Positions 48,483 through 63,151 of a DNA stretch of 64,000 nt are shown piece by piece. The notes under the pieces were generated by a model. That model was not told where the DNA came from and made no database searches. It saw only the letters and a list, made by a program, of their open reading frames with translations. Position 1 is the first letter of the stretch; each line of letters starts with the position of its first letter. Source of the DNA: Candidatus Hinthialibacter antarcticus (GTDB taxonomy: Bacteria > Hinthialibacterota > Hinthialibacteria > Hinthialibacterales > Hinthialibacteraceae); the NCBI GenBank assembly GCA_030765645.1, contig JAVCCE010000015.1, forward strand, positions 124,001 through 188,000. Direction: 5' to 3'. Both the position numbers and the translations under genes were made by a program.

Positions 48483-49529
48483 TCACGCCGGGATGGATTC
48501 ATACAACGCCTGGTTGGCGCGGTAGGCTTCGAGAACTTGATCGGGCGTCGATTGCCCGGTGGTTCCTAACTGGCGGATGGTGATCGACGCCACCAGGTTG
48601 CCGATGATCGCCGCTTCGTTGGGGGTCGCGCCCGAACACAACGCCGAGACGATGCCCGCAGTGACGCTGTCGCCCGCGCCGACGATGTCGATCGGCCCGG
48701 TGACGGGAGGACAAGGAACGCGGGTTTCGCTTTCGCCGCCGATGGGGCAGATGCCTTCTTTGTCGAGCGTAAGAAACACCGTCTGCCCGGTTTTTTGATG
48801 CAACTCGCGCGCGCATTGCATGGCGAGTTCAGTCGGCGGCTCATCGTCGCCTTTGATTGGCTTCACCGCGTTGACGCATTCAAAGCGGTTGGGTTTCAAA
48901 ATCACGTTGTCAAACTCGCCGATGCGCACCCGCGAGTCGGCGTAGAACAATGTGTCCGCGCATTTCGCCGCGAGTTGGGCGACGTGTTCGCGGACGCGGT
49001 CGGTAATCACGCCGCAGTTTCGTTCCTGCACCTGGTCGGCGATGATGACGGCGTCGACTTGCGGCGCCAGTGCATCCAATTTTGCGATGACGGCGTCTTC
49101 GAGGTCTCGCCCAAGCAGGCCGCGATTTTTGGTATCCTGCCGCTCAAGTTCAACCTCGCCGCCGGGCTGCTGCGACATGGGCTTGCAGTAAGTCGGCGTG
49201 AAGCGCTGTTCGGTTTCAACCAAGACCGGCTCAATACGACGGGCGCGTAGGGCTTTCTTGAGGTCATAGCCTTCGCCGTCGTCGCCAACGACCGACAACA
49301 CGTTGACCGTCCCCACTTGCAGCGAACTTAAATTATTGCACACCGTCCCCGCCGCGCCGGGTTGACAGCGGATGCCCGTAATCTGGTGCGCGACCTTGCC
49401 GGTCTCGATGGAAATTTCTTCGAGCGCGGGGCCGATCTCAAGATATTTGTCTAAAAATAAATCGCCAAACACGGCGATGCGTTGTTGCTGAAAGGCGTTT
49501 AAGAGTTGCTGCAGGCGGGCTTCATTCAT
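48483..49529 (-). CDS. PfkB-family sugar kinase (RfaE/HldE domain I-like)
   Basis: 348 residues. Ribokinase fold with N-terminal QQRIAVFGDLFLDKYLE, a CQPGAAGTVCNNLSSL motif in place of GGAANVA, and the catalytic GAGDSVTAGIVSAL (Asp base). The N-terminal pattern is closest to the heptose-7-phosphate kinase domain of HldE. No nucleotidyltransferase domain is fused. The ATG overlaps the upstream stop (ATGA), so it works with the deoxyhypusine-synthase-like and HAD genes. Substrate unknown, probably a sugar phosphate. Confidence 0.88.
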   Translation of the reverse strand: MNEARLQQLLNAFQQQRIAVFGDLFLDKYLEIGPALEEISIETGKVAHQITGIRCQPGAAGTVCNNLSSLQVGTVNVLSVVGDDGEGYDLKKALRARRIEPVLVETEQRFTPTYCKPMSQQPGGEVELERQDTKNRGLLGRDLEDAVIAKLDALAPQVDAVIIADQVQERNCGVITDRVREHVAQLAAKCADTLFYADSRVRIGEFDNVILKPNRFECVNAVKPIKGDDEPPTELAMQCARELHQKTGQTVFLTLDKEGICPIGGESETRVPCPPVTGPIDIVGAGDSVTAGIVSALCSGATPNEAAIIGNLVASITIRQLGTTGQSTPDQVLEAYRANQALYESIPA

Positions 49530-50494
49530 TTTGCTTCAACCGAATCCATTAACGAGCGATAAATTGCGGGGACCGTCTCGCGGTGAGCGCCCTGAATATA
49601 ATGGCTCACGCCGCCGTCTTTGACGGTGCGTACTAGTATCGTTTTCCAGGGGCGATAGTAATAGCGCGGATCGGTCTTGGGCGCTTCTTCGTGATACGAA
49701 CCGGAGATCGGATACAAGTCGAACGCAGCGGTGAGAAAATGGCATATCTCTTCGCCCTTTTGTTTGGCGACGTTGCGCGCCATCGACAGCGCTTTGAGGT
49801 ATACTTCCGGCCCCATTACCGCTGAGCCGAAATTCAAAAACACGCCGCCTTCGAGACCGCAAACCGACTGCGTCATAATGAGAAAATCCTGGTACGAAGC
49901 CGCGCCCATCGCCGCGCCGTCGCAGTTGGGGTGTTCGTGAATAATGTCGTAACCAACGCCGATATGAACCGTCACCGGAATGCCCAGCCGAACCCCCGCC
50001 GCCATGACGGAGATATCGCGATGGGGGAATTTCTCGTCGAGAACCATGCGGCCGATGGCTTCGCCCATGCCCATGCCTTGCTTGACGCCAGCGGCTACGG
50101 CGTCGTTGATGCGTCCGGTGTCTTTCCAAAGGCCGAACTGGCCTTCGCTGATATAGCGCTCCACGCTTTCGGTGGTTTCGCCGATCATCGCCAGTTCAAA
50201 ATCGTGGATCGGCCCGGCGCCGTTCATGGCGATATGGGTAATCAGGCCTTTCTCCATCAGGTCGATCAACATGCGGCCTGTGCCGGAGCGGATGACGTGG
50301 GCGCCCATCGAAACGATAATCTGAGCGCCGCGTTCGCGGGCTTTGCGCATCGCCCGGGTGATTTCGGGGATGGCGTCATGATGAAAACCGCAAGGCGCAT
50401 CCAGCGGCAGCATAACAGAGAGGTCGATGTCGTGTTTGCGCTCGGCAAGCGGCTTGAGAATCAACTGGCTGCGGTCAAAGGCAGGAAACGGCAT
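49526..50494 (-). CDS. Deoxyhypusine-synthase-like NAD-binding-fold protein
   Basis: 322 residues. Segments GLITHIAMNGAGPIHDFELAM and ETTESVERYI resemble the NAD-binding core of deoxyhypusine synthase (…NGAGIVHD…), and HIGVGYDIIHEHPNCDGAA looks like a conserved metal or ligand loop. The C-terminal region lacks the VKVYADAS-type lysine motif that forms the enzyme intermediate in true DHS, and the organism is bacterial with no eIF5A here. So the reaction is likely different. It is sandwiched between sugar-phosphate enzymes, two bases after the HAD gene. Confidence 0.75.
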   Translation of the reverse strand: MPFPAFDRSQLILKPLAERKHDIDLSVMLPLDAPCGFHHDAIPEITRAMRKARERGAQIIVSMGAHVIRSGTGRMLIDLMEKGLITHIAMNGAGPIHDFELAMIGETTESVERYISEGQFGLWKDTGRINDAVAAGVKQGMGMGEAIGRMVLDEKFPHRDISVMAAGVRLGIPVTVHIGVGYDIIHEHPNCDGAAMGAASYQDFLIMTQSVCGLEGGVFLNFGSAVMGPEVYLKALSMARNVAKQKGEEICHFLTAAFDLYPISGSYHEEAPKTDPRYYYRPWKTILVRTVKDGGVSHYIQGAHRETVPAIYRSLMDSVEAK

Positions 50495-50496
50495 GT

Positions 50497-51345
50497 TTAA
50501 CTCTCTCCAAACAAGAGATCAATCAATTGTGAGTGTTCGGAAAAATTGGGGACGATAAAGTCGGCCCCGGCTTGAATCAGGCGGTTGCGTTTCCATTCAT
50601 CGACTTCAATGCGGCCCGCTTCGTCAGAGGCGACCCCCAGCGCAAACCCGCCGACTTCTTTGCAATTCTCAATTTCGACATAGCCGTCGCCGACCGCTAG
50701 CAATTCAGCGCCGGACAAGTTGTTTTCTTTTATAATGTGTTCAATGATTTTTTTCTTTGAGAACTTTTTATAATCGTCAACCGCGCCGTAGATGTGCGTC
50801 TGAAAATAGGACGTCAGCCCTAGCGCTTCGGCTTCATCTACGACGAATTGATGGTCGGTGCCGCTGGCGAGATAGAGTTTAGCGCCCTGTTCTTTGAGCG
50901 CGTCTAAAAACTCATAACTGCCGGGAACCAAAAAATCGACGGGCTGAGACTTGCCGTTGCGCAGCCCTTCCACGCGGTGTTTGATGCGCTCCCACAGGCG
51001 GTCGAGGTAGATGTATTTATATTCCAGCGGGTCTTTGGCGGTCCCGCCGCGTTTTTCGATTTGTTCTTTAAGTTCGATCATCTGATAGATGGTCTGCTTA
51101 CCGGTAAGGCGGGCGACGAACTCTTTGATAATCAGCGTGAGTTCTTCTTCGCTTTCCCGGGCGCCGGTTTCGGTCAAAAATTCCAGCATCATGGGGTTCA
51201 TGATGTCTTGCCAGCCTTCGCGAATCAGCGAGAGGGTGCCGTCGAAATCAAACAGAACATGGCGCAGCCGCCTCTGGTCTGGCAAGGCGTGAATGATTTC
51301 AATTTTAGTTCCTGGAGCGTAAGTTGGAGTTTGATTAATTGTCAT
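50497..51345 (-). CDS. HAD-superfamily phosphatase
   Basis: 282 residues from the ATG at 51345; an in-frame ATG at 51378 would add an unlikely hydrophobic start. Motif I LFDFDGTLS, motif II LASGTDH and motif IV VGDGYVEIENCKE. The motif IV acidic residues are shifted to Glu relative to the usual GDxxxD. A helical cap (about 60-140) suggests subclass C1. It is the first gene of the operon and could dephosphorylate the sugar product of this unit. Confidence 0.85.
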   Translation of the reverse strand: MTINQTPTYAPGTKIEIIHALPDQRRLRHVLFDFDGTLSLIREGWQDIMNPMMLEFLTETGARESEEELTLIIKEFVARLTGKQTIYQMIELKEQIEKRGGTAKDPLEYKYIYLDRLWERIKHRVEGLRNGKSQPVDFLVPGSYEFLDALKEQGAKLYLASGTDHQFVVDEAEALGLTSYFQTHIYGAVDDYKKFSKKKIIEHIIKENNLSGAELLAVGDGYVEIENCKEVGGFALGVASDEAGRIEVDEWKRNRLIQAGADFIVPNFSEHSQLIDLLFGES

Positions 51346-51378
51346 GGGTCCCACTAAAAAAAACAGAATAAACCGCAT

Positions 51379-51703: not shown

Positions 51704-54700
51704 ATGGGCCGTTATTGTTTTCCAATCACTCTTATTGAATCCATCAACGAAGAAACCCGCGTCAAGAAAGCGCGCCGCGCTCCAGGCAATCTGATTGCGA
51801 CCGGCAGCCTGTCAATGAGCGCTTCATCCGCGCAATGCAAGGTTGCATCGGGAACGAATGGCCCCGCCGTCGCAACCACGCAGTCTCTACTGCAAGACGG
51901 CGCGAAATTACTCAAGGAATTGGGCCATACGCCCCTGATTCATAGCGCATTCGATGGCGCAGGCGACTCTACGGTACAAATCGCCTGGATGTCGGGCCAC
52001 AACACCCTCATCGAAGTCTTGCCCGGCGACAGCCCCGTCATTCAGGTTGAAACCAGCTGGGCCGAAAGCGCATCGCAAGAGGGTTCGCCCGTTCTCAGCG
52101 CGATGATGCTGCTCTATGCGCTTTCGATCCTTGGCGGCGCTTCTCAACGCGACGCCCTGCACGCGCTGCTCGATTTTAGCGACCTGCTTGATGACGCACA
52201 GACGCAAGCGTTGAAGGAGGTCTTAAAAGACCGCCGCCTCGACGGCAACAGCGCCTTCGCCTTATTTATTGACATCGCCCACAACAAAGAACTCGCCGAA
52301 GAACTCGAACAATTTGACTTTACGCAATTACAGCGCGTACGGACGCCGTTGTTGTTCGCTGCGGGCAACCGCCTCGAAGCGGCCTTATTTTCACAACGGC
52401 GAAAAGCCAGCTCAACATCCGTCGAGATTCCCGAATGTCTCAAACAACTGACTCAACATTCAAACGGGGTTGTCATTGAAGCGGATGAAGTTGATGCGTT
52501 GACGAAACGGCTTGAAGCGCTCGAACTCGAAGATGCGGCGAAGCTCATCGAAAAAACCCTGAAATGGCGCGACCGCTGGGTGACCTGGCTGACCGGGCAG
52601 CAGCGTATTGATCTGCCCTATAACAACGAGCAGGTTGTCCGCATTATGAACGAGCCGATTGAAGACGTTGATGAAAAACGCGCCCTGATAAACGAAGCGG
52701 TGGCGTCAACCTACGACCAGACGCTCGAAGGCGAAAACATTCAGCGCATCACCTCCTGGTCGCGCGAAAACGGTATGCGCCTGGTGGCGGGCCGCCTCAG
52801 CCGCGCCTTTGGCAACCAGTCGCAGTTGTTGTCCGTATCAAAGGTGCTGGCCGATAAAGAAGGCCTTTTGCCCTATGCGAAAAAACTCCATCAAGCCAGC
52901 GCCTCGCTGCGCGAGTTGCAAACCCAGGCGGCGCGGCTGCTGCATTTGATCCAACAGCAAAAACCAACGCCGTTCGCGCAAACCGTGGGGGCGTTGAACC
53001 ATTTTGAAGAAGCGCTGTTCGCGTTCCAGTCAAAAGAATTTAAACGCATGTTGCGCGAAAAAGACGAAGCCTCGCGGCGCGTGATCGGACGCCCGGACGC
53101 CGACGCCTGCGGCGCGGTGCTGGATTCGCTGCAAGAAACCACCCGTTCGTTGTATCGCTTGGCGGCGGAGTTCCGCGACCAGTTAGAACAAAGCAAGACC
53201 TCGCCAGCGGCGTTCATTGTGTTGATGCAACGGCTGCACCCCGCCGAGACGGTCAACCTCGCCAACGCCAACCTGCTGCGCGACGTTCACCCCGGCAAAG
53301 AAGACGACCTGCGCGACCTGATGCGCATCGGCGGACATTACACCTACAGTACACCGGGATCGGGCCTGCTCGCGGTCGACGGCGGCGATAACGAGCCGAC
53401 CCACTGGGTCATTCACGTCGATGATTGGATCGAGGCGATCCCGCTGTTTATTCATGAGCGCGTAGTCAAGCGCACGGTAAAATCAGGCAATGATGAAATC
53501 ACCATCGAAGTCATCGAAACCGAAGTCGATCAGGAGTCGATGGAGGCGTTTTTTAGAATTCACGCCGAATTTTGGGCGCAGAATATTGAAGCGGTGATGG
53601 ACAGCCAACATGTGGGGCTGGCGCGGCGGTTGTTGGTGCAGCATGACGAATCTCTGCGCGCGCAAGCCGAAGCCTATTGCCGCGAGAACCCTGAAAAGAA
53701 CGCCGATGACGCCGCCTGGGCGCTCATCAAAGAACATCCCGCCGCCTTACAGGGAGCATCCGCGCTGGGCGCGATGATCGGCGCCTTCTATCGCGACCAG
53801 GTCGAAGCGGTCGCGCACATCGTCGAGTCGCAGGACGTGCTGCGGCATGAAGCGCTCGAGACGGTTTTATCTACCGATAAAAAATCCGCTACGGCGAAAA
53901 AAATTCACGCCGCGTTAAAAGCAGGCGCCGTCGAAGCGATCAGCAAGAAAGCGCTGGCGACGGTGAAATCGAGCCGCAACGGGCTTGCCGACGAATGCAA
54001 CCAACTAACCGCAATCGCCGACCAACCCACCCGCCGCACCAGCAGCCTGCACATTCTCACCACCGAATCAGCCGGGATGACCGAAGGCTACGTTCAAACC
54101 TGGATCGAGGAAGAAATCGCGCTGTATAACATCGTGCGCCATGAAAACCTCGAAAGCGCCGTGCAAAAACGCATGGGCGAATTTGGAACGCGCATTCAGG
54201 CGCTGAGCCGCAAGGTGATCGGCGAGTTCGGCATGAGCGTGGTCATCGACGAAGTGATGGCGCAACAGCGCCTGCCGGAACCGGCGGCGGTGATGACAGT
54301 GCTGATATCGTACAAACCCATCCTCAATGAGACCGCCAAACTGGGCGTACTAATCGAACTGATGGAGCGCGAAGGCAAGCGCAAGGTCAATGTTAAAAAC
54401 GCCGACGATCCGAAAGAGGTCGATGCCTATATCAAGAAGAACAAAGCCGCATTGATGAAGACAGCGGTCGCCGTTGTTGCGAACAATAACGGCAAGGCGT
54501 TTGAACAACGGGTGGAAGCGCTGCACAAAGAAGCGCCCAAGAAAAATCTCTATGAAATTCAAAAGCGGGCCATCGCCGAAGAGAGCGATTATCAGGAAGA
54601 ACTCGACGCCGTCATCCGCTTTGCGGCGCGTGACGCCGTGCTGGCGCAGTTGATGCAAAAACACCCCGAACTGCATATCGAAGACCAGATTGCGACGTAT

Positions 54701-57700
54701 ATCCGCACCCGCACTCAACTGGCGAAATCGACCGCGCGGAAAGAAGTGGTCGCTAAGAAAAAACTACACGCGCTGGCGCAACACCCGCTCTATTACTATC
54801 AGGCAGCGGGCGGCAACAAGCGCTACAACCTGCTCTACACCCCCAGCCGCGTTAACCTGGGCGAACGCGAACGCGATTCTGTCGTCAAGTGGCGGCAGTG
54901 GGTGGGCGGCGCCGACCGCTGGGCCGCGCAGGCCGGGTTTGAATTCTATAGCCTCATCAACGAAGGCGGCGTCGAAGAACGCCCCGCCCTGGCTTACGCC
55001 GAAATTCAAAAGACATCCGAGAACGCGCTGTGCGTCACTCATTTCGCCGGGTCGAACGCGCTGGCGCTGCTGTGTATGGCGGTGCTCGAAGGCGACGCCG
55101 AAGATATGGCCGACCAGATGAACCTGCGCGAAGACCGCATGGCGCCGCCTGCGGGCGAAGGCTACGGCGGCTATTGCGTGCCCAAAGACGGCCTATTTTT
55201 AGCGTTCGTGTTGTCGCTGCAAAACGAGATGAAGCTGCGCCAGATCGGCGTACCGGAACGCCTGCACGACGGCGTGATGAAAATGGCGAAATTCGTGTTG
55301 CTGCATCAACGCGACTTTGGTTCGTACTTCGACTGGCAGCGCTGGGCGGCGGACAAGCTGCTCAAGTACAGCGAGATGAAAAAATACTTCGACCTGCGCG
55401 ACGACCTGATGGTGTTCCATATCAACAAGATTGCGCGCGCCGTCGAGAACCTGGGCCAGCCGTGGCACGAAACCACCGAAGGCTCGAAACTGATGGCGAA
55501 CCTGGCGGCGCAATGGGGCGTCGAGCGCATGATTATCCGCGCGGAACAGGTCAACCGCTTTATGGTGTTCTACAAAGCCTGGATGATCTACGACGCGCTG
55601 CGCGAAGCGCGCCAGCAACATCCGCTCTGTCATAGCGAAGGCGAATCGGTCATCGCGCTCTCGGCGGAATACAAGCCCGTGCAAGACGTGCGCTTCTCGA
55701 CGGGGATGCGTTTGTTTGAACTCTTCGCCCAAACCGGCGACCACCTCGCCCATTCGCTCGATGAAGAAGGCCAGAACCTGGCGTATCTGATGACCAACGG
55801 CTTTGATCCTAAAACGCAAGATTCTGTCGGACAGCGCATGTTGCGGCAACTCATGTCAGCGTTTCGCCTCAACCTGAAAGACAAGGAAACGGTTGAGCGA
55901 CTGCAAGAGGCGTTCCCGCCGCATGACCCGCCGGGCGAACTGGTGATGATTTCGTCAACCATGTCGTCAACGCAAGATTTGTTGTTCTACACCAGCGACG
56001 CCAAATTGGATGAAATCGCCGACCAGGTGCAGGTCATCCTCAATGACTACGGCCTCACCGAAGACCAGATTCGCGCCAATGCGACCGTCTTCGGCGGGCG
56101 CCTGCGCCAGTGGGCGGGCATCAACCAACTGCCAGCGTCCGAACAGGACGATCTCATCTCACGCGTCGGCGGACGCATCCACGCGCTGGTCTTACGCATG
56201 CGCGGGCCGGGGCGTTCGTATGAAACCGACATCCAGGGCGTCGACGTCATCAACACAGGCATTCCCTTCCCCGAGCTGGTCGACCAGTTCGACGACATGC
56301 CGCGCCTGATCGCCATGATGCGCAACGGCAACCCGCACAGTGCGCTCGCCATCGCCGACGGCGCCGCCGGACGCGCCCGCCGGATGTTGACCTACTTCGA
56401 CGTGATGCAATTCTTCGCCGCCTGCGAAGCCATCGAACGCGGGGGCGTCTATCGCGGCATCGGCCTGGGCAAGCGCAACATTGATCGCCTGCGCGAAGAC
56501 ATGCGCCGCCAACGCGCCCGCGCCGCCTCGCTGTTTGACGCAGTCGCCGCCGTCGCGCAATGTGAAGGCGATGCGCAAACCAAGGCCGCGCAAAACGCGT
56601 TGACGTTGTATCACGCTCTGCAAGAAGAAATCACCGTAGAAGAAGAAGCGGGCAAGGCGTTGCGCGAAGAAGAAAAGCTCAAACGCCACAAAAAATGGAA
56701 ACTGCGCGATTCGCACATCAGCCAGGCGCTGATCAAAATCAGTGCAGGCCTGCCGCTGCAACAACTCGATTGGGGAACCTGGACCGCCGGCGTGGGCGGC
56801 GTGTTCGTGGTGATTGGCGAGCAGGAAGACGATATCGAAGAACGCCGCGCCGCCTGGAACATGGGTGTCTCGTTCATCGCCAAACTTTGCCCCGCGCAAA
56901 GCGCCGTCGATGTGCAGCCATTCGAGGGCGATGCGCTCGAAGCCGTTTGCGCGGCGATGGTGCGCCCCGCCTATCAACCGGAAACGCAACGCTTCACGCA
57001 GCAGATGTTGGTCGAGTCATCCAGCAAGGCGGTCGAAATCGCCGCCCGTGAAGCGCTCGAACGCCGCAAAGCGCTCAAGGTACGCGCCGAACGCGCCCGC
57101 GCCTTCAACCAGCGCGAGGACGGTTTCCGTGAGGCGTTCCAAAACGAAGCGGTCGCGCCGTTCGATGAGATATGGGCCAGTGCGCAAGATTGTTTGAACG
57201 CCATTCAACGCGACATCAAGTCGCTGCAAGGCATGAAAGCCGATTCGCCCAAACGCCAGAGCCTTCAGAACAACGTCAACAAAACATTTGGCCGCGTCAT
57301 CGGGCTGACCCGCGCCTCCTTCACCCGTTTGGTGAAAGACCACATGCCCGAAGACAGCGCAGAGCGCCGATCCAGCAAGCAGAAGGTCCTCGACGATCTG
57401 GCGCTGGTCTACACCGGACGCGAAATCATCTTCGAGCATCTCAAACAACTGGCGGGCGGATATGAAGACGTGGGAGGAATCGCCCGTTTGGCTGAAGCCG
57501 CTAAAGGCGACCGCAAAAAACTCGACGCCACCGCCAAAGCCATTGAGTTGTTCTACGTCACGTTCGCATTGGCGCAAACGCTGGAATTCTCGGTTGCGCT
57601 GACCGAAGACCTCGATGAAGCCATGGCCTGGAAGAACATCACCGACTTCTTCGCCGAGTCGATCAACGACCACTGGTATGAATATTGGCCGTGGGCCTAT

Positions 57701-59668
57701 TCGCGCGGCGTCGGCTTTGAGCCGGTTCCGCGTGATGAGCGCATCGCCCTGGCGGTCGAACGCCACGCCTGGTTGTATGACTACATGCGCGGCGTCTTGC
57801 TTTACGCGACCGAATTGCGCGATCTCAGCGTTGCCGATCAAGACCAACTGCTAGGCAATTTCTGCGGCAAGAAACAAGTGGTCGCCATCGGCGCCAACGC
57901 CCAGACGGCGGACGAACGGCAATGGCGGGCCTACAATCAATTGCGTGAAATCGCCTTTATGAAGACGGACGGTTTCTTGTTGCCTCCAGTGATCGACTTA
58001 GACCCGGATCTCATCGAAGCCGACAGTCGCGTCAATCTCGCGTTCTTGTATCCCGTTGGGCGCACCCACGTTTCGCGCGCTTTGCGTGAAGGCCCGACGA
58101 TTAACCAGGAGTTACAATCCAAAAAGAAAACCGGCGTCAACATCATCATTACCCGCTATAACGATTTCGCCGAAGTCGAAGGCGCCAAACGCAAAGTCAT
58201 TTTATTGACCGACGGTCATCTCTATATCAGCGAAAAAGAATATAAACAGGCGCTGCGCCAACAGGGCATGAACGCCAAGCAGATCAGCGAACGCATCGCC
58301 CAAGACAAAGCCAGCGGGCGGCTCACGCCCAAGGGCATTCGCGTCGCGGCTCGTTTTGCGCAAAACGGAAAGCCCTCGCCCATCGCGGTCAGCGGCTTGA
58401 TGCCGTTCCACGGCCTGCCGCTCTACGACAGCGGCCAAACCGAAGCCGAGGGCCTGCCCGCCACCACCCAGTCGCGCATTCTCAGCGACATCACTTATGA
58501 CAAGTCGATCTACCCGGGCATCTTCACGCCGAAAACAGGCGTCCATCTGCCGCCGGAAATTGACTGGATGCAAGACTGGACGCAAGGCGCATCGTCAAAA
58601 GACGCGCTGCGGGAAATCTGCGAAGGCCGACCCGCAAACGGCTTTAGCGGGCTGCGCGCATTCGCCAAAGAACACCCCATCGTGCTCATCAAAGGCGCGG
58701 CGGAATCGGGCGCCCGCAACCTCAAGGTGTTCGAAATCCAAGACGACTATACCCGCATCCAAGAAGACGCCCTGCTCGACGCCGCGAAGTTTGTCTTGCA
58801 GGTTTCAAAGTCGCAAAACGTGGTCATCCAAACTGCGATTATGACCTCGCCCGAACTATGGGCGTCGCCTGAACTGATCGACCGTTTCGTTGACCGCCAG
58901 GTGCTCGAATGGAACACCCCGGTCAAGCGCGAACATTACCCGCGCCCGCAGATTTATGGTTCGCTGCGCATCGTGGCGTCGTCGTCGAATCCAAAACGCA
59001 AATATGACACGGCGTTTCCAATTTCGCTCATCAGTCTGCAAGTCGCCACCAACGTCGGGCGCGGCGGCACCCTGGAGACGCTGCGGCCTGAATTTATCCA
59101 AGAGCGTTACCGCAAGCAAATTCTCGACGGCTTGCACAAAGAAGGCCCCAAGGCGCTCAATGCCGTCAATGAATACATCAAGCAACACGGCGCCGAGTGG
59201 GAACAGCGCACCGGACTCAAGATCGGCGAAGATTTGCGCGGTGTTTCTTATGGCTGGGCGAATTACCTGATGTGCGACTATCTGGTGCTGCCCGTCTTCA
59301 AACGCAATGGGCGCCTAGTCGATTTGGAACCCGAATGGGACGCGCAAGGCCGCCGCATCGGCACCAAAGCCGTGCTGCAAGATGAACGCGGACGCTTCGA
59401 GGGCGAGATCGCTGAATGGCAATTCATTCACCTCGAACCCAACGTCGGCATCGGCCTGTGGGACCGTTACAACCTGCGCGAAGAAGTGCAGGAGAACGAA
59501 GCCGTCTTACGCGGCGAGCGCAAATTTGACTGGAACAACATCGGTCAGAGCGACCGGGTGGTGTTGACGAACTTTGCGCTGTCCAGCGCCGAATATCTGA
59601 AGGCCAACTTTGGCCGCAGCGGCGTCCAACGCGCAAATATCACCAAAGCGTTTGAAAGCGGAAAGTAA
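51704..59668 (+). CDS. Giant 2654-residue protein with C-terminal ATP-grasp-like domain
   Basis: One uninterrupted frame of 7965 bases. AAAGG abuts an ATG at 51695 but lies nine bases before the in-frame ATG at 51704, which is preferred. No signal peptide or transmembrane helix is evident, so it is probably cytoplasmic. Residues about 1-1050 are helical and Ala/Glu/Leu-rich. Around 1060-1500 lies a denser globular region (YYYQAAGGNKRYNLLY, AGEGYGGYCVPKDGLFLAF, YFDWQRWAADKLLKYSE). Around 1500-1950 there is another helical block. The C-terminus, about 2130-2640, resembles ATP-grasp: VNIIITRYND, a lysine strand IVLIKGAAESGARNLKVFEI, and LISLQVATNVGRGGTLETL near 2440-2460, like the metal/phosphate Asn-Gly-Gly loop. 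It might ligate carboxylate and amine substrates. No family is recognised. Confidence 0.9.
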   Translation: MGRYCFPITLIESINEETRVKKARRAPGNLIATGSLSMSASSAQCKVASGTNGPAVATTQSLLQDGAKLLKELGHTPLIHSAFDGAGDSTVQIAWMSGHNTLIEVLPGDSPVIQVETSWAESASQEGSPVLSAMMLLYALSILGGASQRDALHALLDFSDLLDDAQTQALKEVLKDRRLDGNSAFALFIDIAHNKELAEELEQFDFTQLQRVRTPLLFAAGNRLEAALFSQRRKASSTSVEIPECLKQLTQHSNGVVIEADEVDALTKRLEALELEDAAKLIEKTLKWRDRWVTWLTGQQRIDLPYNNEQVVRIMNEPIEDVDEKRALINEAVASTYDQTLEGENIQRITSWSRENGMRLVAGRLSRAFGNQSQLLSVSKVLADKEGLLPYAKKLHQASASLRELQTQAARLLHLIQQQKPTPFAQTVGALNHFEEALFAFQSKEFKRMLREKDEASRRVIGRPDADACGAVLDSLQETTRSLYRLAAEFRDQLEQSKTSPAAFIVLMQRLHPAETVNLANANLLRDVHPGKEDDLRDLMRIGGHYTYSTPGSGLLAVDGGDNEPTHWVIHVDDWIEAIPLFIHERVVKRTVKSGNDEITIEVIETEVDQESMEAFFRIHAEFWAQNIEAVMDSQHVGLARRLLVQHDESLRAQAEAYCRENPEKNADDAAWALIKEHPAALQGASALGAMIGAFYRDQVEAVAHIVESQDVLRHEALETVLSTDKKSATAKKIHAALKAGAVEAISKKALATVKSSRNGLADECNQLTAIADQPTRRTSSLHILTTESAGMTEGYVQTWIEEEIALYNIVRHENLESAVQKRMGEFGTRIQALSRKVIGEFGMSVVIDEVMAQQRLPEPAAVMTVLISYKPILNETAKLGVLIELMEREGKRKVNVKNADDPKEVDAYIKKNKAALMKTAVAVVANNNGKAFEQRVEALHKEAPKKNLYEIQKRAIAEESDYQEELDAVIRFAARDAVLAQLMQKHPELHIEDQIATYIRTRTQLAKSTARKEVVAKKKLHALAQHPLYYYQAAGGNKRYNLLYTPSRVNLGERERDSVVKWRQWVGGADRWAAQAGFEFYSLINEGGVEERPALAYAEIQKTSENALCVTHFAGSNALALLCMAVLEGDAEDMADQMNLREDRMAPPAGEGYGGYCVPKDGLFLAFVLSLQNEMKLRQIGVPERLHDGVMKMAKFVLLHQRDFGSYFDWQRWAADKLLKYSEMKKYFDLRDDLMVFHINKIARAVENLGQPWHETTEGSKLMANLAAQWGVERMIIRAEQVNRFMVFYKAWMIYDALREARQQHPLCHSEGESVIALSAEYKPVQDVRFSTGMRLFELFAQTGDHLAHSLDEEGQNLAYLMTNGFDPKTQDSVGQRMLRQLMSAFRLNLKDKETVERLQEAFPPHDPPGELVMISSTMSSTQDLLFYTSDAKLDEIADQVQVILNDYGLTEDQIRANATVFGGRLRQWAGINQLPASEQDDLISRVGGRIHALVLRMRGPGRSYETDIQGVDVINTGIPFPELVDQFDDMPRLIAMMRNGNPHSALAIADGAAGRARRMLTYFDVMQFFAACEAIERGGVYRGIGLGKRNIDRLREDMRRQRARAASLFDAVAAVAQCEGDAQTKAAQNALTLYHALQEEITVEEEAGKALREEEKLKRHKKWKLRDSHISQALIKISAGLPLQQLDWGTWTAGVGGVFVVIGEQEDDIEERRAAWNMGVSFIAKLCPAQSAVDVQPFEGDALEAVCAAMVRPAYQPETQRFTQQMLVESSSKAVEIAAREALERRKALKVRAERARAFNQREDGFREAFQNEAVAPFDEIWASAQDCLNAIQRDIKSLQGMKADSPKRQSLQNNVNKTFGRVIGLTRASFTRLVKDHMPEDSAERRSSKQKVLDDLALVYTGREIIFEHLKQLAGGYEDVGGIARLAEAAKGDRKKLDATAKAIELFYVTFALAQTLEFSVALTEDLDEAMAWKNITDFFAESINDHWYEYWPWAYSRGVGFEPVPRDERIALAVERHAWLYDYMRGVLLYATELRDLSVADQDQLLGNFCGKKQVVAIGANAQTADERQWRAYNQLREIAFMKTDGFLLPPVIDLDPDLIEADSRVNLAFLYPVGRTHVSRALREGPTINQELQSKKKTGVNIIITRYNDFAEVEGAKRKVILLTDGHLYISEKEYKQALRQQGMNAKQISERIAQDKASGRLTPKGIRVAARFAQNGKPSPIAVSGLMPFHGLPLYDSGQTEAEGLPATTQSRILSDITYDKSIYPGIFTPKTGVHLPPEIDWMQDWTQGASSKDALREICEGRPANGFSGLRAFAKEHPIVLIKGAAESGARNLKVFEIQDDYTRIQEDALLDAAKFVLQVSKSQNVVIQTAIMTSPELWASPELIDRFVDRQVLEWNTPVKREHYPRPQIYGSLRIVASSSNPKRKYDTAFPISLISLQVATNVGRGGTLETLRPEFIQERYRKQILDGLHKEGPKALNAVNEYIKQHGAEWEQRTGLKIGEDLRGVSYGWANYLMCDYLVLPVFKRNGRLVDLEPEWDAQGRRIGTKAVLQDERGRFEGEIAEWQFIHLEPNVGIGLWDRYNLREEVQENEAVLRGERKFDWNNIGQSDRVVLTNFALSSAEYLKANFGRSGVQRANITKAFESGK

Positions 59669-59682
59669 GCAAGCCGGTATAA

Positions 59683-59767
59683 GGCTTGGGTGAGTCTCTC
59701 TTCGCTTCGGTGCGGGCTTTCAAGCCCTTATGCACAGGCGCTCACAGAGACTCGCCCAAGCCTTTTT
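59683..59767 (+). terminator. Long-stem terminator after the giant gene
   Basis: GGCTTGGGTGAGTCTCT (59683-59699) pairs with AGAGACTCGCCCAAGCC (59746-59762) over 17 bases with one G-U, followed by TTTTT. An inner hairpin GGGCTTTCAAGCCC sits in the loop. The loop sequence CGGGCTTTCA…ATGCACAGGCGCTC recurs at 63320-63353, so this terminator is built from a dispersed repeat. Confidence 0.85.
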
Positions 59768-59947: not shown

Positions 59948-60051
59948 AGATTTTATTAAACGCATTGAGAATAAACGATAGTGATTTATGATTACTCATT
60001 GGAGCGGTCGGGCCGCTCCCGTTTTTGCGAAATCTAAAGGAGAATATCGGG

Positions 60052-60945
60052 ATGACGTACCCTTATATGCGCGGGGCTTACCCCGCTTTGGTCACGCCGT
60101 TTACTGAAAATGGAAGCGCGGTTGCATTAGACAAATTGGGAGCGATGGTCGAACGCCATGTTCAAAAAGGCGTGAGCGGGCTGTTTATCTGCGGCACCAC
60201 CGGACAAGGCCCCAACCTGACCGCCGATGAAAAAATCGCTGTGGTCCGCGAAGTGGTCAGCGCCGCCGCCGGACGCTTCGAAGTCTGGGCGCAAGTGACC
60301 TGCGACGATTGGCCCGGCACCCTCAAGACCATCGACGCCGCGCTGAAAACCGACGTAACCGGGCTGAGTTTTTTACAGCCCTGGTACTACGGCGTCGATG
60401 TTGAAGCGCAGTATCAATTTCACGCGCGCGCCGCAGAACGCGTCGAAGGCAAGCCCGTCTATTTATATAACATCCCCCAATGCGCGGGCAACAACATCGA
60501 AGTTGACACCGTCAAACGGCTGCTGGATTCGTTCGAGGTGATTCGCGGCATCAAAGAAAGCGCCAGCCCCGCCGCCGTGCGGCGTTGGCTCGACCTGCAA
60601 TGCGAGCGCTTTCACGCCACTTGCGGGGTGGATACCGTCGTGGCTGAAATGCTGCGGCTCGGCATTGAAGCCAACGTCACCTCGTTCGGCAACGCCGTCC
60701 CAGATTATTTTGTAAACATTCACAACGCCGCCCGCAAAGCCGACTGGACCCTCGCAACCGAATGGCAGCAAAAGTTAAACCGTCTGGTTGACGCTTGGGA
60801 CAGCAGCGTCCTGATCCCCAAATTACTCGAAGCCTACTGCATCTTCGGCGTTGAAACCGGCTGCGTACGCCCGCCGCTGCGCGAACTGAGCGACGCTGAA
60901 CGCGCCAACGTGAAAGAGTGGATCGAAAAAGAGGGCTTACAGTAA
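60052..60945 (+). CDS. DapA/NanA-family class I aldolase
   Basis: 297 residues. TIM-barrel aldolase with GTTGQGPNLTADEK (usual GTTGE), the tyrosine of VYLYNIPQ and the Schiff-base lysine of IRGIKES. The family includes dihydrodipicolinate synthase, N-acetylneuraminate lyase and sugar-acid aldolases; the changed Gln in GTTGQ and the lack of lysine genes argue against DapA itself. The ATG at 60052 has AAAGGAG nine bases upstream and is preferred over an upstream TTG. It is separated from the giant gene by a terminator. Confidence 0.9.
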   Translation: MTYPYMRGAYPALVTPFTENGSAVALDKLGAMVERHVQKGVSGLFICGTTGQGPNLTADEKIAVVREVVSAAAGRFEVWAQVTCDDWPGTLKTIDAALKTDVTGLSFLQPWYYGVDVEAQYQFHARAAERVEGKPVYLYNIPQCAGNNIEVDTVKRLLDSFEVIRGIKESASPAAVRRWLDLQCERFHATCGVDTVVAEMLRLGIEANVTSFGNAVPDYFVNIHNAARKADWTLATEWQQKLNRLVDAWDSSVLIPKLLEAYCIFGVETGCVRPPLRELSDAERANVKEWIEKEGLQ

Positions 60946-60961
60946 GGTCACATGAGACAGG

Positions 60962-61588
60962 TTAACTGATATCTCGCAAGACCACGCGGCAGGGGCTGCC
61001 GTCGGCGTCTTTGAATTTCAGCGGCAGCGCGATGAGTTCATAGCGCCCCGGCGGCACGTTGCGCAGGTCGAGTCCCTCAACGATTATCATGCCCTTGCCG
61101 CAGAGTTCGTGATGCACCGGATGGCCGGGGTTCTTAAAGGCTTCGATAGAAAAATAATCAATGCCCACCAGTTTCACGCCCGCCGCCGTCAACGCCCGGG
61201 CGGCATCCAACCCCAGCGCGGTAAAATCTTCGTGGAATTTTGTATCATCAATATAGGCGCTGTTGCGCGTTTTAAAAATGATCCGTTCGACGCCGTCGAG
61301 CGGCGGTAGGTGCGCGGGCAGAATTAGCGGCGCATCGCCTTCAACTTCATGCACCAGCGCCGGGCCGATGAGCGTGTTCAAGTCGAGTTGGTCAAGACGC
61401 AGACCGTCCGGCTCAAAATGGTAGGGCGCGTCTAAATGGGTGGCGAAGTGGGTGCTCATCGACACTTTGGAGACGTTGCAGCCGCCGCCGTTACTCATCT
61501 CGCTGGTCGCGATGCGCACGTACGGCGTGTCGCCCGGCCAGCAGGGCTGGTTTTCGTGAAGGTCTAAGGTCAAATCATACAATGCCAT
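60962..61588 (-). CDS. Cyclase-family metal-dependent hydrolase (kynurenine formamidase-like)
   Basis: 208 residues. The family signature is visible: LYDLTLDLHENQPCWPGD, and the metal site STHFATHLDAPYHFEPDG (HxTHxDxPxH type), followed by LVGIDYFSIE. Family members hydrolyse N-formylkynurenine or cyclic amides/esters. GGAG seven bases before the ATG at 61588 fixes the start; longer versions would translate the upstream terminator. No tryptophan-catabolic partner is near, so the substrate is open. Confidence 0.9.
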   Translation of the reverse strand: MALYDLTLDLHENQPCWPGDTPYVRIATSEMSNGGGCNVSKVSMSTHFATHLDAPYHFEPDGLRLDQLDLNTLIGPALVHEVEGDAPLILPAHLPPLDGVERIIFKTRNSAYIDDTKFHEDFTALGLDAARALTAAGVKLVGIDYFSIEAFKNPGHPVHHELCGKGMIIVEGLDLRNVPPGRYELIALPLKFKDADGSPCRVVLRDIS

Positions 61589-61605
61589 GTTCATGCTCCA
61601 TTCAT

Positions 61606-61637
61606 AAAAAAGGCGTTCCCAAATGAGAACGCCTTTT
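61606..61637 (-). terminator. Rho-independent terminator after the S41 protease
   Basis: On the minus strand AAAAGGCGTTC / GAACGCCTTTT with an eight-base loop and a TTTTTT run. It separates the protease from the cyclase-family gene. Confidence 0.93.
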
Positions 61638-61657
61638 CGCAAGTCATTTTGCCTGCA

Positions 61658-63151
61658 TCAGCCTTCGTCGCTTGTTTCTTCTTGCGTTGAAGAGCGAAGG
61701 TCGGCGATGGTTTTGTCGCCGTTCAAATATTCATACGCGGCCTTCAACTGGGGGTCGCGTTCAAACTGGCGCTCGAGCCGTGAAACGTGGTCGTAATCTT
61801 TTTCGGTGATTTCTTTGGCTTTTTCAAAGGTGATGCGGTCCACGTGAATGTCCGGCTCAATGCCAAGATTGTGGATGCACTTGCCGGAGGGCGTGTAATA
61901 TTTCGCCACTGTCAAACGCAAGCCTGCATCGCCGTCGAGCGGGAACACTTCCTGCACGGAGCCTTTACCGAAACTTTTTTTGCCCACCACGACCGCGCGA
62001 TGGTTGTCTTTGAGCGCTCCGGTCACGACCTCAGACGCGCTGGCCGACGCCTCGTTCACCAAGATCACCATGGGGATATCGCTAAACCCGTCCAGGCTGG
62101 TGATTGAATCGCGAAATTCTTTATAGGGCGATTCGCGCCCGTAGGTATACGTAATCAACTCGCCTTTGGGCAGAAAAATATCAGCAATTTTAACCGCCTG
62201 GTCAAGATAGCCGCCGGGATTATACCGCATATCAAAAACGAGTTTTTCCATGCCCAGCGTTTTTAAGTAGAGCAGCGCGTCGCGTACGTCTTTGCTGGAA
62301 TATTGATAAAAACTCGATAAGCGGATATACCCGATGCCGCTCTGCTCGCCTTCGTCATCAAGCATCTCGCGCATGATGTGAACTTCGCTATTGATAGGCG
62401 CGCGTTTGAGGGTGAACTCTAACAGTTCCGGCGCATCCTTGCGCTTCACCGTCAAATTCACTGGCGTGTCTTTTTCGCCTTTAATCAGATCAATGGCTTC
62501 TTGTAATTTGTCAGCATAGGCGCCTTCGAGTTCTGAAAGCGGCTTGCCGTTAACGCCAGTGATAATATCGGAGGGCTGGATGCCGTTTTCGTAGGCGGGC
62601 GAACCCTGCAACGGGGTAATCACCAGCACGCCGAGGTCGGATTGGGTGTCCCAATCTACGTGGATGCCAACGCCGTAAAATTGATGAGACTCATCGGGCT
62701 TTCCCGACAAGACGCGCTGAAGTTCCTGGTGTTCGACGGGCGGCAGATACTGGCTATAGGGGTCTTCGAGGGCGATCACTAACCCATTGATGGAGCGGTT
62801 CCACAAGTCGCGAACGGTCGGCGTGGCCCCTTCAGGCAGTTGGCGCGAAACCAGTTCCAATGCGGTTTGGATGCGCTGGCTATAGATGGCTTGTAATTCT
62901 TTCGAGGGCGCATCGACCGGCACAACCGCCACCAAGCGTTCATTGGTTACTGGCAGAATGGTTTCGAGGCTCTTCCACGAATGTTCGAACAAATCGGCAA
63001 AATCGACTTTGTCTTCATAGCGCTCGCTGATTTGTTTGGTGACTTGATAAAAATTTCTGTGCCCTAAGTCATAATCCTGTTTATTGTCCGCCGCAGCGGT
63101 CAGGCACATAGAAAAGATTAGTATTGCAATCCATTGATTCAAACGCATCAT
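61658..63151 (-). CDS. S41-family carboxy-terminal processing protease
   Basis: 497 residues. A signal peptide (MMRLNQWIAILIFSMCLTAAA) exports it. A PDZ domain covers about 145-245 (GIQPSDIITGVNGKPLSEL). The catalytic Ser lies in VNEASASASE (Ser371) with the Lys of SFGKGSVQEVFPL (Lys396) 25 residues later, as in CtpA/Prc. It trims C-termini of periplasmic proteins. The long tail after residue 440 (KEITEKDYDHVSRLERQFERD) resembles that of CtpA proteases. It is monocistronic with its own terminator. Confidence 0.94.
   Translation of the reverse strand: MMRLNQWIAILIFSMCLTAAADNKQDYDLGHRNFYQVTKQISERYEDKVDFADLFEHSWKSLETILPVTNERLVAVVPVDAPSKELQAIYSQRIQTALELVSRQLPEGATPTVRDLWNRSINGLVIALEDPYSQYLPPVEHQELQRVLSGKPDESHQFYGVGIHVDWDTQSDLGVLVITPLQGSPAYENGIQPSDIITGVNGKPLSELEGAYADKLQEAIDLIKGEKDTPVNLTVKRKDAPELLEFTLKRAPINSEVHIMREMLDDEGEQSGIGYIRLSSFYQYSSKDVRDALLYLKTLGMEKLVFDMRYNPGGYLDQAVKIADIFLPKGELITYTYGRESPYKEFRDSITSLDGFSDIPMVILVNEASASASEVVTGALKDNHRAVVVGKKSFGKGSVQEVFPLDGDAGLRLTVAKYYTPSGKCIHNLGIEPDIHVDRITFEKAKEITEKDYDHVSRLERQFERDPQLKAAYEYLNGDKTIADLRSSTQEETSDEG

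Follow-up and report, generated by a model that had tools for sequence, protein, structure and literature searches.

NDP-sugar dehydrogenases (TIGR03026, PF00984; UDP-ManNAc and UDP-Glc enzymes) and ATP-grasp carboxylate-amine ligases (D-Ala-D-Ala ligase, RimK, prokaryotic glutathione synthetase, DcsG) are the closest described relatives of the two modules that we recognise in the giant protein analysed here. In human UGDH, the sugar-site residues Cys276, Lys220, Asn224 and Arg260 and their roles have been described, and a Gln mutant of Glu161 was crystallised with a thiohemiacetal intermediate (PMC3184952). Sugar-1-kinases that feed UDP-sugars are GHMP kinases (PMC3938481). Large single-chain ATP-grasp ligases are likewise described, e.g. 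cyanophycin synthetase and other large peptide ligases. In the open-access literature searched, no description of a dehydrogenase-type module combined with an ATP-grasp domain was found, and the giant family itself was found neither there nor in the family libraries searched. Its gene lies in the window, i.e. the whole stretch of 64,000 nucleotides that was analysed, and all coordinates without a locus name refer to this stretch.

The giant gene is one unbroken frame from 51695 or 51704 to 59668 (+) with 2654 codons plus stop; a start at Met 51704 is backed by the N-termini of aligned orthologues and gives a protein of 2654 aa (51704..59668). Related assemblies, some of them bearing the label Candidatus Omnitrophota and others being genomes of the window's own family, contain full-length orthologues (2646-2744 codons, 50-70% identity), hence the frame did not arise through misassembly. 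An earlier, sequence-only reading had already described a single 2654-residue frame of normal codon use, lacking tandem repeats and possessing its own strong terminator, and all of this was borne out: the codon-position GC of 0.63/0.40/0.71 resembles that of neighbouring genes, a search for tandem repeats found none, and an intrinsic terminator follows (59681..59764, +), with a 19-bp stem of -53.1 kcal/mol (z = -7.9, 0 shuffles as good) and a U run after the stem. The maximum 19-residue hydropathy of 1.68 indicates a protein with no clear membrane segment. A cluster of three genes (48483-51378, -) diverges from the giant gene and encodes a HAD phosphatase, a PfkB sugar kinase and, between these in the list of products, an unusual protein whose ArgZ-like match is weak. 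By Pfam there is nothing out of the ordinary in what is encoded 3' of the giant gene (60046-63151), namely a DapA-family protein, a putative cyclase and a PDZ/S41 peptidase. In L031, too, a HAD gene (249-1151) lies upstream of the orthologue in divergent orientation. These local neighbours (PfkB kinase, HAD phosphatase, DapA-like protein) were dropped as pathway members, as they are not kept beside orthologues except for the HAD gene in L031.

Homologues of about 2350-2740 residues with 24-70% identity are patchily distributed across five phyla. The divergent ones (2350-2690 residues, 24-54% identity, some cut by contig ends) come from four further phyla, those of G040, G051, G294 and G309. 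In a wide sample with one or few genomes per family, 14/386 genomes encode the giant protein, 10 of them from the window's phylum (sampled with 14 genomes), and in a second sample of the same design 5/385 do. Three genomes of the window's order hold two giant copies, which fall in the two deepest clades of the tree. Together with the mixing of phyla, this suggests horizontal transfer, with long branches making the deep joins uncertain.

The C-terminal region (residues 2090-2651; 57971..59656, +) had been guessed by eye to be ATP-grasp-like, and structure prediction, set beforehand as the refuting test of this guess, showed an ATP-grasp fold. The AlphaFold2 model, built from 13 aligned sequences, reached a pLDDT of 82.5 and a pTM of 0.80, and its best 50 Foldseek matches in the PDB were all ATP-grasp ligases (prob 1.00), led by D-Ala-D-Ala ligases (E 2.5e-9) and including glutathione synthetase, RimK and DcsG. 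The superposition was modest (target-normalised TM 0.36-0.60), as the insertions and mobile lobes of such a domain would lead one to expect. K2330, R2422, N2450, G2454, G2455, D2525, E2578 and N2580 are invariant across 26-28 homologues, and their order (lysine loop, R, NVxxGG, D, ExN) is one that we take to be that of RimK-type ligases, the residue roles being assigned by motif order and not by superposition. Thus, the predicted structure confirmed an ATP-grasp domain with the presumed nucleotide-lysine, phosphate-loop and metal-ligand positions intact. It resembles the described carboxylate-amine ligases in fold and in the order and identity of key residues, but has Gln2376 where many members have Glu, sits within a 2654-residue chain and lacks a significant Pfam or PDB sequence match. 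None of the Pfam ATP-grasp models scored above cut-off (GSH-S_ATP reached E 0.065 in one family member) and a PDB sequence search with this region gave no significant match; sequence searches by themselves would not have shown the domain.

The same reading held that the protein belongs to an unknown family with no recognisable domain besides the C-terminus. The former stands insofar as no curated model covers the whole protein; the latter was wrong, for two family models match its middle. PF00984 scores above its gathering cut-off (E 1.4e-7, 32 bits vs 25.4), and TIGR03026 matches 28/29 family members, reaching E 1.1e-12 in the giant protein, though with 47.5 bits it stays under its cut-off of 189.8 bits and covers only profile positions 142-277. 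The comparison with NDP-sugar dehydrogenases by hhalign gave 96%, and a family profile search of the PDB retrieved 3g79 (E 9.5e-9) as well as 4r16, the latter with a second collinear segment that is not significant alone. On this sequence evidence, the module at residues about 1036-1171 (54809..55216, +) is descended from the central module of NDP-sugar dehydrogenases, and so, more weakly, are residues about 1281-1345, within a stretch (about 1281-1350; 55544..55753, +) that corresponds to the weak second segment of 4r16, i.e. a linker helix and the start of the UDP-binding domain (YKPxxxDvR). Besides these two elements, the sugar-site Cys-Lys-Asn-Arg set is shared at closely matched spacing: C1158, K1103 and N1107 correspond to human UGDH Cys276, Lys220 and Asn224, and Arg1142 precedes Cys1158 by 16 residues, as Arg260 does Cys276 (PMC3184952). 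C1158, K1103, N1107 and R1142 are present in 28/28 homologues, K1161 is also invariant, position 1162 is D or E, and K1324, D1328 and R1330 are invariant in the YKPxxxDvR segment.

On the other hand, the giant protein departs from true NDP-sugar dehydrogenases in its very large flanking helical regions, its fusion to an ATP-grasp domain, a Ser (Ser1048, 26/26) that aligns with human UGDH Glu161, and the NAD side, where the conserved GxGxxG motif that precedes the central module in 7/7 control dehydrogenases is absent from every homologue. A 1195-residue AlphaFold2 model covering the dehydrogenase region (pLDDT 81.9, pTM 0.79) retrieved NDP-sugar dehydrogenases exclusively at Foldseek ranks 1-44 (prob 0.47-1.00), but with E >= 2e-3 and a target-normalised TM of 0.16-0.22, and its active-site loop is poorly modelled (pLDDT 41-63). 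Owing to the missing GxGxxG, the Glu161 to Ser exchange, the weak Foldseek scores and the poor loop model, we call the module derived from, and not a member of, the NDP-sugar dehydrogenases, and the missing NAD motif makes oxidation doubtful.

The remaining regions are specific to the family or poorly conserved. Residues 1-285 (51704..52558, +) are partly missing or unalignable in divergent homologues. Residues about 286-1035 (52559..54808, +) are mainly helical with scattered strands in the AlphaFold2 model, and residue counts across homologues show a GRxSRAF motif (363-369) and T787 to be invariant. Residues 1480-2089 (56141..57970, +) are conserved, and a profile of residues 1480-2100 matched only the giant family in genomes; neither this profile nor one of the N-terminal 1000 residues found anything convincing in the PDB. 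Matches of the giant protein to MtrG, phage-sheath and ribosome-recycling-factor proteins were dropped for being under cut-offs. A match to the ABC transporter binding protein 4ywh (E 0.0066) was lost when a profile was used. A viral fold library yielded only long-helix tape-measure-type proteins (prob <= 0.16).

A protein of ~470 residues is encoded directly downstream of the giant gene in fifteen divergent loci. It is itself an ATP-grasp protein: the L102 member exceeds the cut-off of Pfam ATP-grasp_3, profile searches matched the protein to D-Ala-D-Ala ligase and cyanophycin synthase, and its K, GTEG, D and NPRP positions are conserved. The resemblance of the giant protein to cyanophycin synthetase consists in being a large single-chain ATP-grasp ligase; its other domains differ, and the weak sequence likeness to cyanophycin synthase belongs to the separate partner only. 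Placing both proteins in one ATP-grasp subfamily was rejected, as hhalign gave a probability of only 18%, though the alignment spans the same motifs. Across 78 genomes, both proteins are present in 29, neither in 47 and only one in 2 (1 and 1), for which a naive Fisher test gives p = 4e-19, although the genomes are not phylogenetically independent and the effective independent events are far fewer. In the window's phylum, the giant gene occurs in 10/14 genomes and the partner in exactly those 10, and the three genomes with two giants also have two partners. In the G309 phylum, 19/64 genomes have both and 43/64 neither, the two discordant ones being incomplete members of one genus. The partner adjoins the giant gene in most divergent loci, and the association persists where the two are unlinked, as in the window's own genome, where the partner lies at G000:C73, about 87534-88931 (L133 8535-9932). 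The notion that the gene stands alone thus fits its local neighbourhood but not the genome, and that of a one-gene system was contradicted by this almost perfect co-occurrence and by a GHMP kinase that usually follows the partner. Other genes were seen near either of them in parts of the family: partner and GHMP kinase lie behind tyrS, hisH and hisF in the window's genome (L133 5896-10975, G000:C73), an order repeated in L136, L137 and L138; in paralogous loci of three window-order genomes (L026, 1832-3664; L029; L030), the gene after the partner encodes a radical SAM protein; and in many G309-phylum genomes (L110, L111, L113, L118 and similar) the giant gene has, close upstream, genes that by eye encode a histidine kinase and an NtrC-type regulator, the same clusters having members near the orthologue in L034.

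In 6/6 genomes of the window's family the GHMP kinase comes directly after the partner (in the window's own genome at G000:C73, about 88784-89974). It does so too in L159-L163, where partner and giant gene are unlinked, and in many loci where they are linked, whereas none adjoins it in L026, L027, L102 and L116. Partner-linked kinases form three groups with <25% identity between groups; one is unassigned and carries a GNPSDGYFGKTIS motif, another resembles fucokinase and the third galactokinase, and from this divergence it looks as if a sugar-1-kinase has been recruited repeatedly. The GNPSDGYFGKTIS motif, found in the window's family, presumably recalls plant glucuronokinase. This is the likeness to UDP-glucuronate salvage (glucuronokinase plus pyrophosphorylase), from which the system differs in that no pyrophosphorylase adjoins and other lineages have fucokinase-like or galactokinase-like kinases. 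No nucleotidyltransferase, glycosyltransferase or transporter was consistently linked.

Taken together, the giant protein is probably one part of a sugar-processing pathway in at least five phyla, and, where the sequence-only reading had suggested peptide or polyamide natural products, the evidence points to sugar chemistry over polyamide synthesis. We give about an even chance to the reading that an uncharacterised pathway, with the giant protein as its main enzyme, uses ATP to build acyl linkages, in all likelihood amides, on a sugar or nucleotide sugar. Here, the GHMP kinase would provide a sugar-1-phosphate that is converted to a nucleotide sugar; the dehydrogenase-derived module would hold the latter at Cys1158, Lys1103, Asn1107 and Arg1142 and may oxidise C6, with covalent chemistry at Cys1158 being possible; the C-terminal ATP-grasp domain would turn a carboxylate and ATP into an acyl phosphate to be joined to an amine; and the partner would carry out a second ligation. 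The product might be an aminoacyl or peptidyl sugar (uronamide-like), a precursor of a surface glycan or small molecule. The ATP-grasp fold with its invariant residues, the dehydrogenase homology with an intact sugar side, the near-perfect co-occurrence with the partner, kept despite a patchy distribution in five phyla, and the kinase after the partner in most lineages all speak for this reading. Several points weigh against it or parts of it: ATP-grasp enzymes make non-amide products too; C6 oxidation by the giant protein is doubtful given the missing GxGxxG; the Foldseek E-values and TM-scores of the dehydrogenase region are weak and its active-site loop is poorly modelled; neither a consistently linked transferase or transporter nor, in four loci, an adjacent kinase is present; and the co-occurrence counts are not phylogenetically independent.

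A true NDP-sugar 6-dehydrogenase, with an NAD half rebuilt beyond recognition and an ATP-grasp domain that amidates the resulting uronate, is unlikely. It would account for the invariance of every sugar-side catalytic residue, T787 lies within a TTxxxGxT element that resembles the STVPxGT loop, and the strand and helix at the invariant GRxSRAF could be a substitute dinucleotide site. However, the conserved GxGxxG of all seven controls is found in no homologue, Ser occupies the Glu161 position throughout (26/26), and the window's own genome already holds two ordinary NDP-sugar dehydrogenases. We regard as rather improbable that the dehydrogenase-derived module is a mere scaffold or sugar-binding anchor in a RimK- or D-Ala-D-Ala-ligase-like modifier of a protein or peptidoglycan peptide; the Foldseek matches to these very enzymes and the RimK-like order of the TNVGRGG and HLEPN motifs agree with it, but it would explain neither why the Cys, Lys, Asn and Arg of the sugar site are fully conserved nor why the partner is repeatedly linked to GHMP kinases of the sugar type. 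A component of a defence, conflict or secretion system, to which large size and patchy cross-phylum spread might hint, is highly improbable given that a PADLOC search of giant, partner and kinase and a plasmid search gave no match, no mobile genes adjoin and the partners are metabolic enzymes.

There is a small chance that the module has kept the ability to bind the sugar covalently through its Cys, as an acyl or hemiacetal intermediate, but has lost the hydrolytic side of the reaction, and that an amine supplied via the two ATP-grasp enzymes captures the activated sugar. The proposed loss would go with the invariant Ser, which stands in place of the Glu that in human UGDH, when mutated to Gln, leaves the intermediate trapped. 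If this were true, the giant protein would be a uronamide or glycopeptide synthetase and a new route to sugar-amino-acid conjugates. Two familiar folds, normally separate small proteins, are joined here in one large non-repetitive enzyme with active sites invariant at 24-30% overall identity, and its tight co-occurrence with a second ATP-grasp protein, along with a sugar kinase that recurs, delineates a pathway of several genes in at least five phyla. The giant system might thereby give a handle on a sugar conjugate and test a UDP-sugar-dehydrogenase active site without the usual NAD motif.
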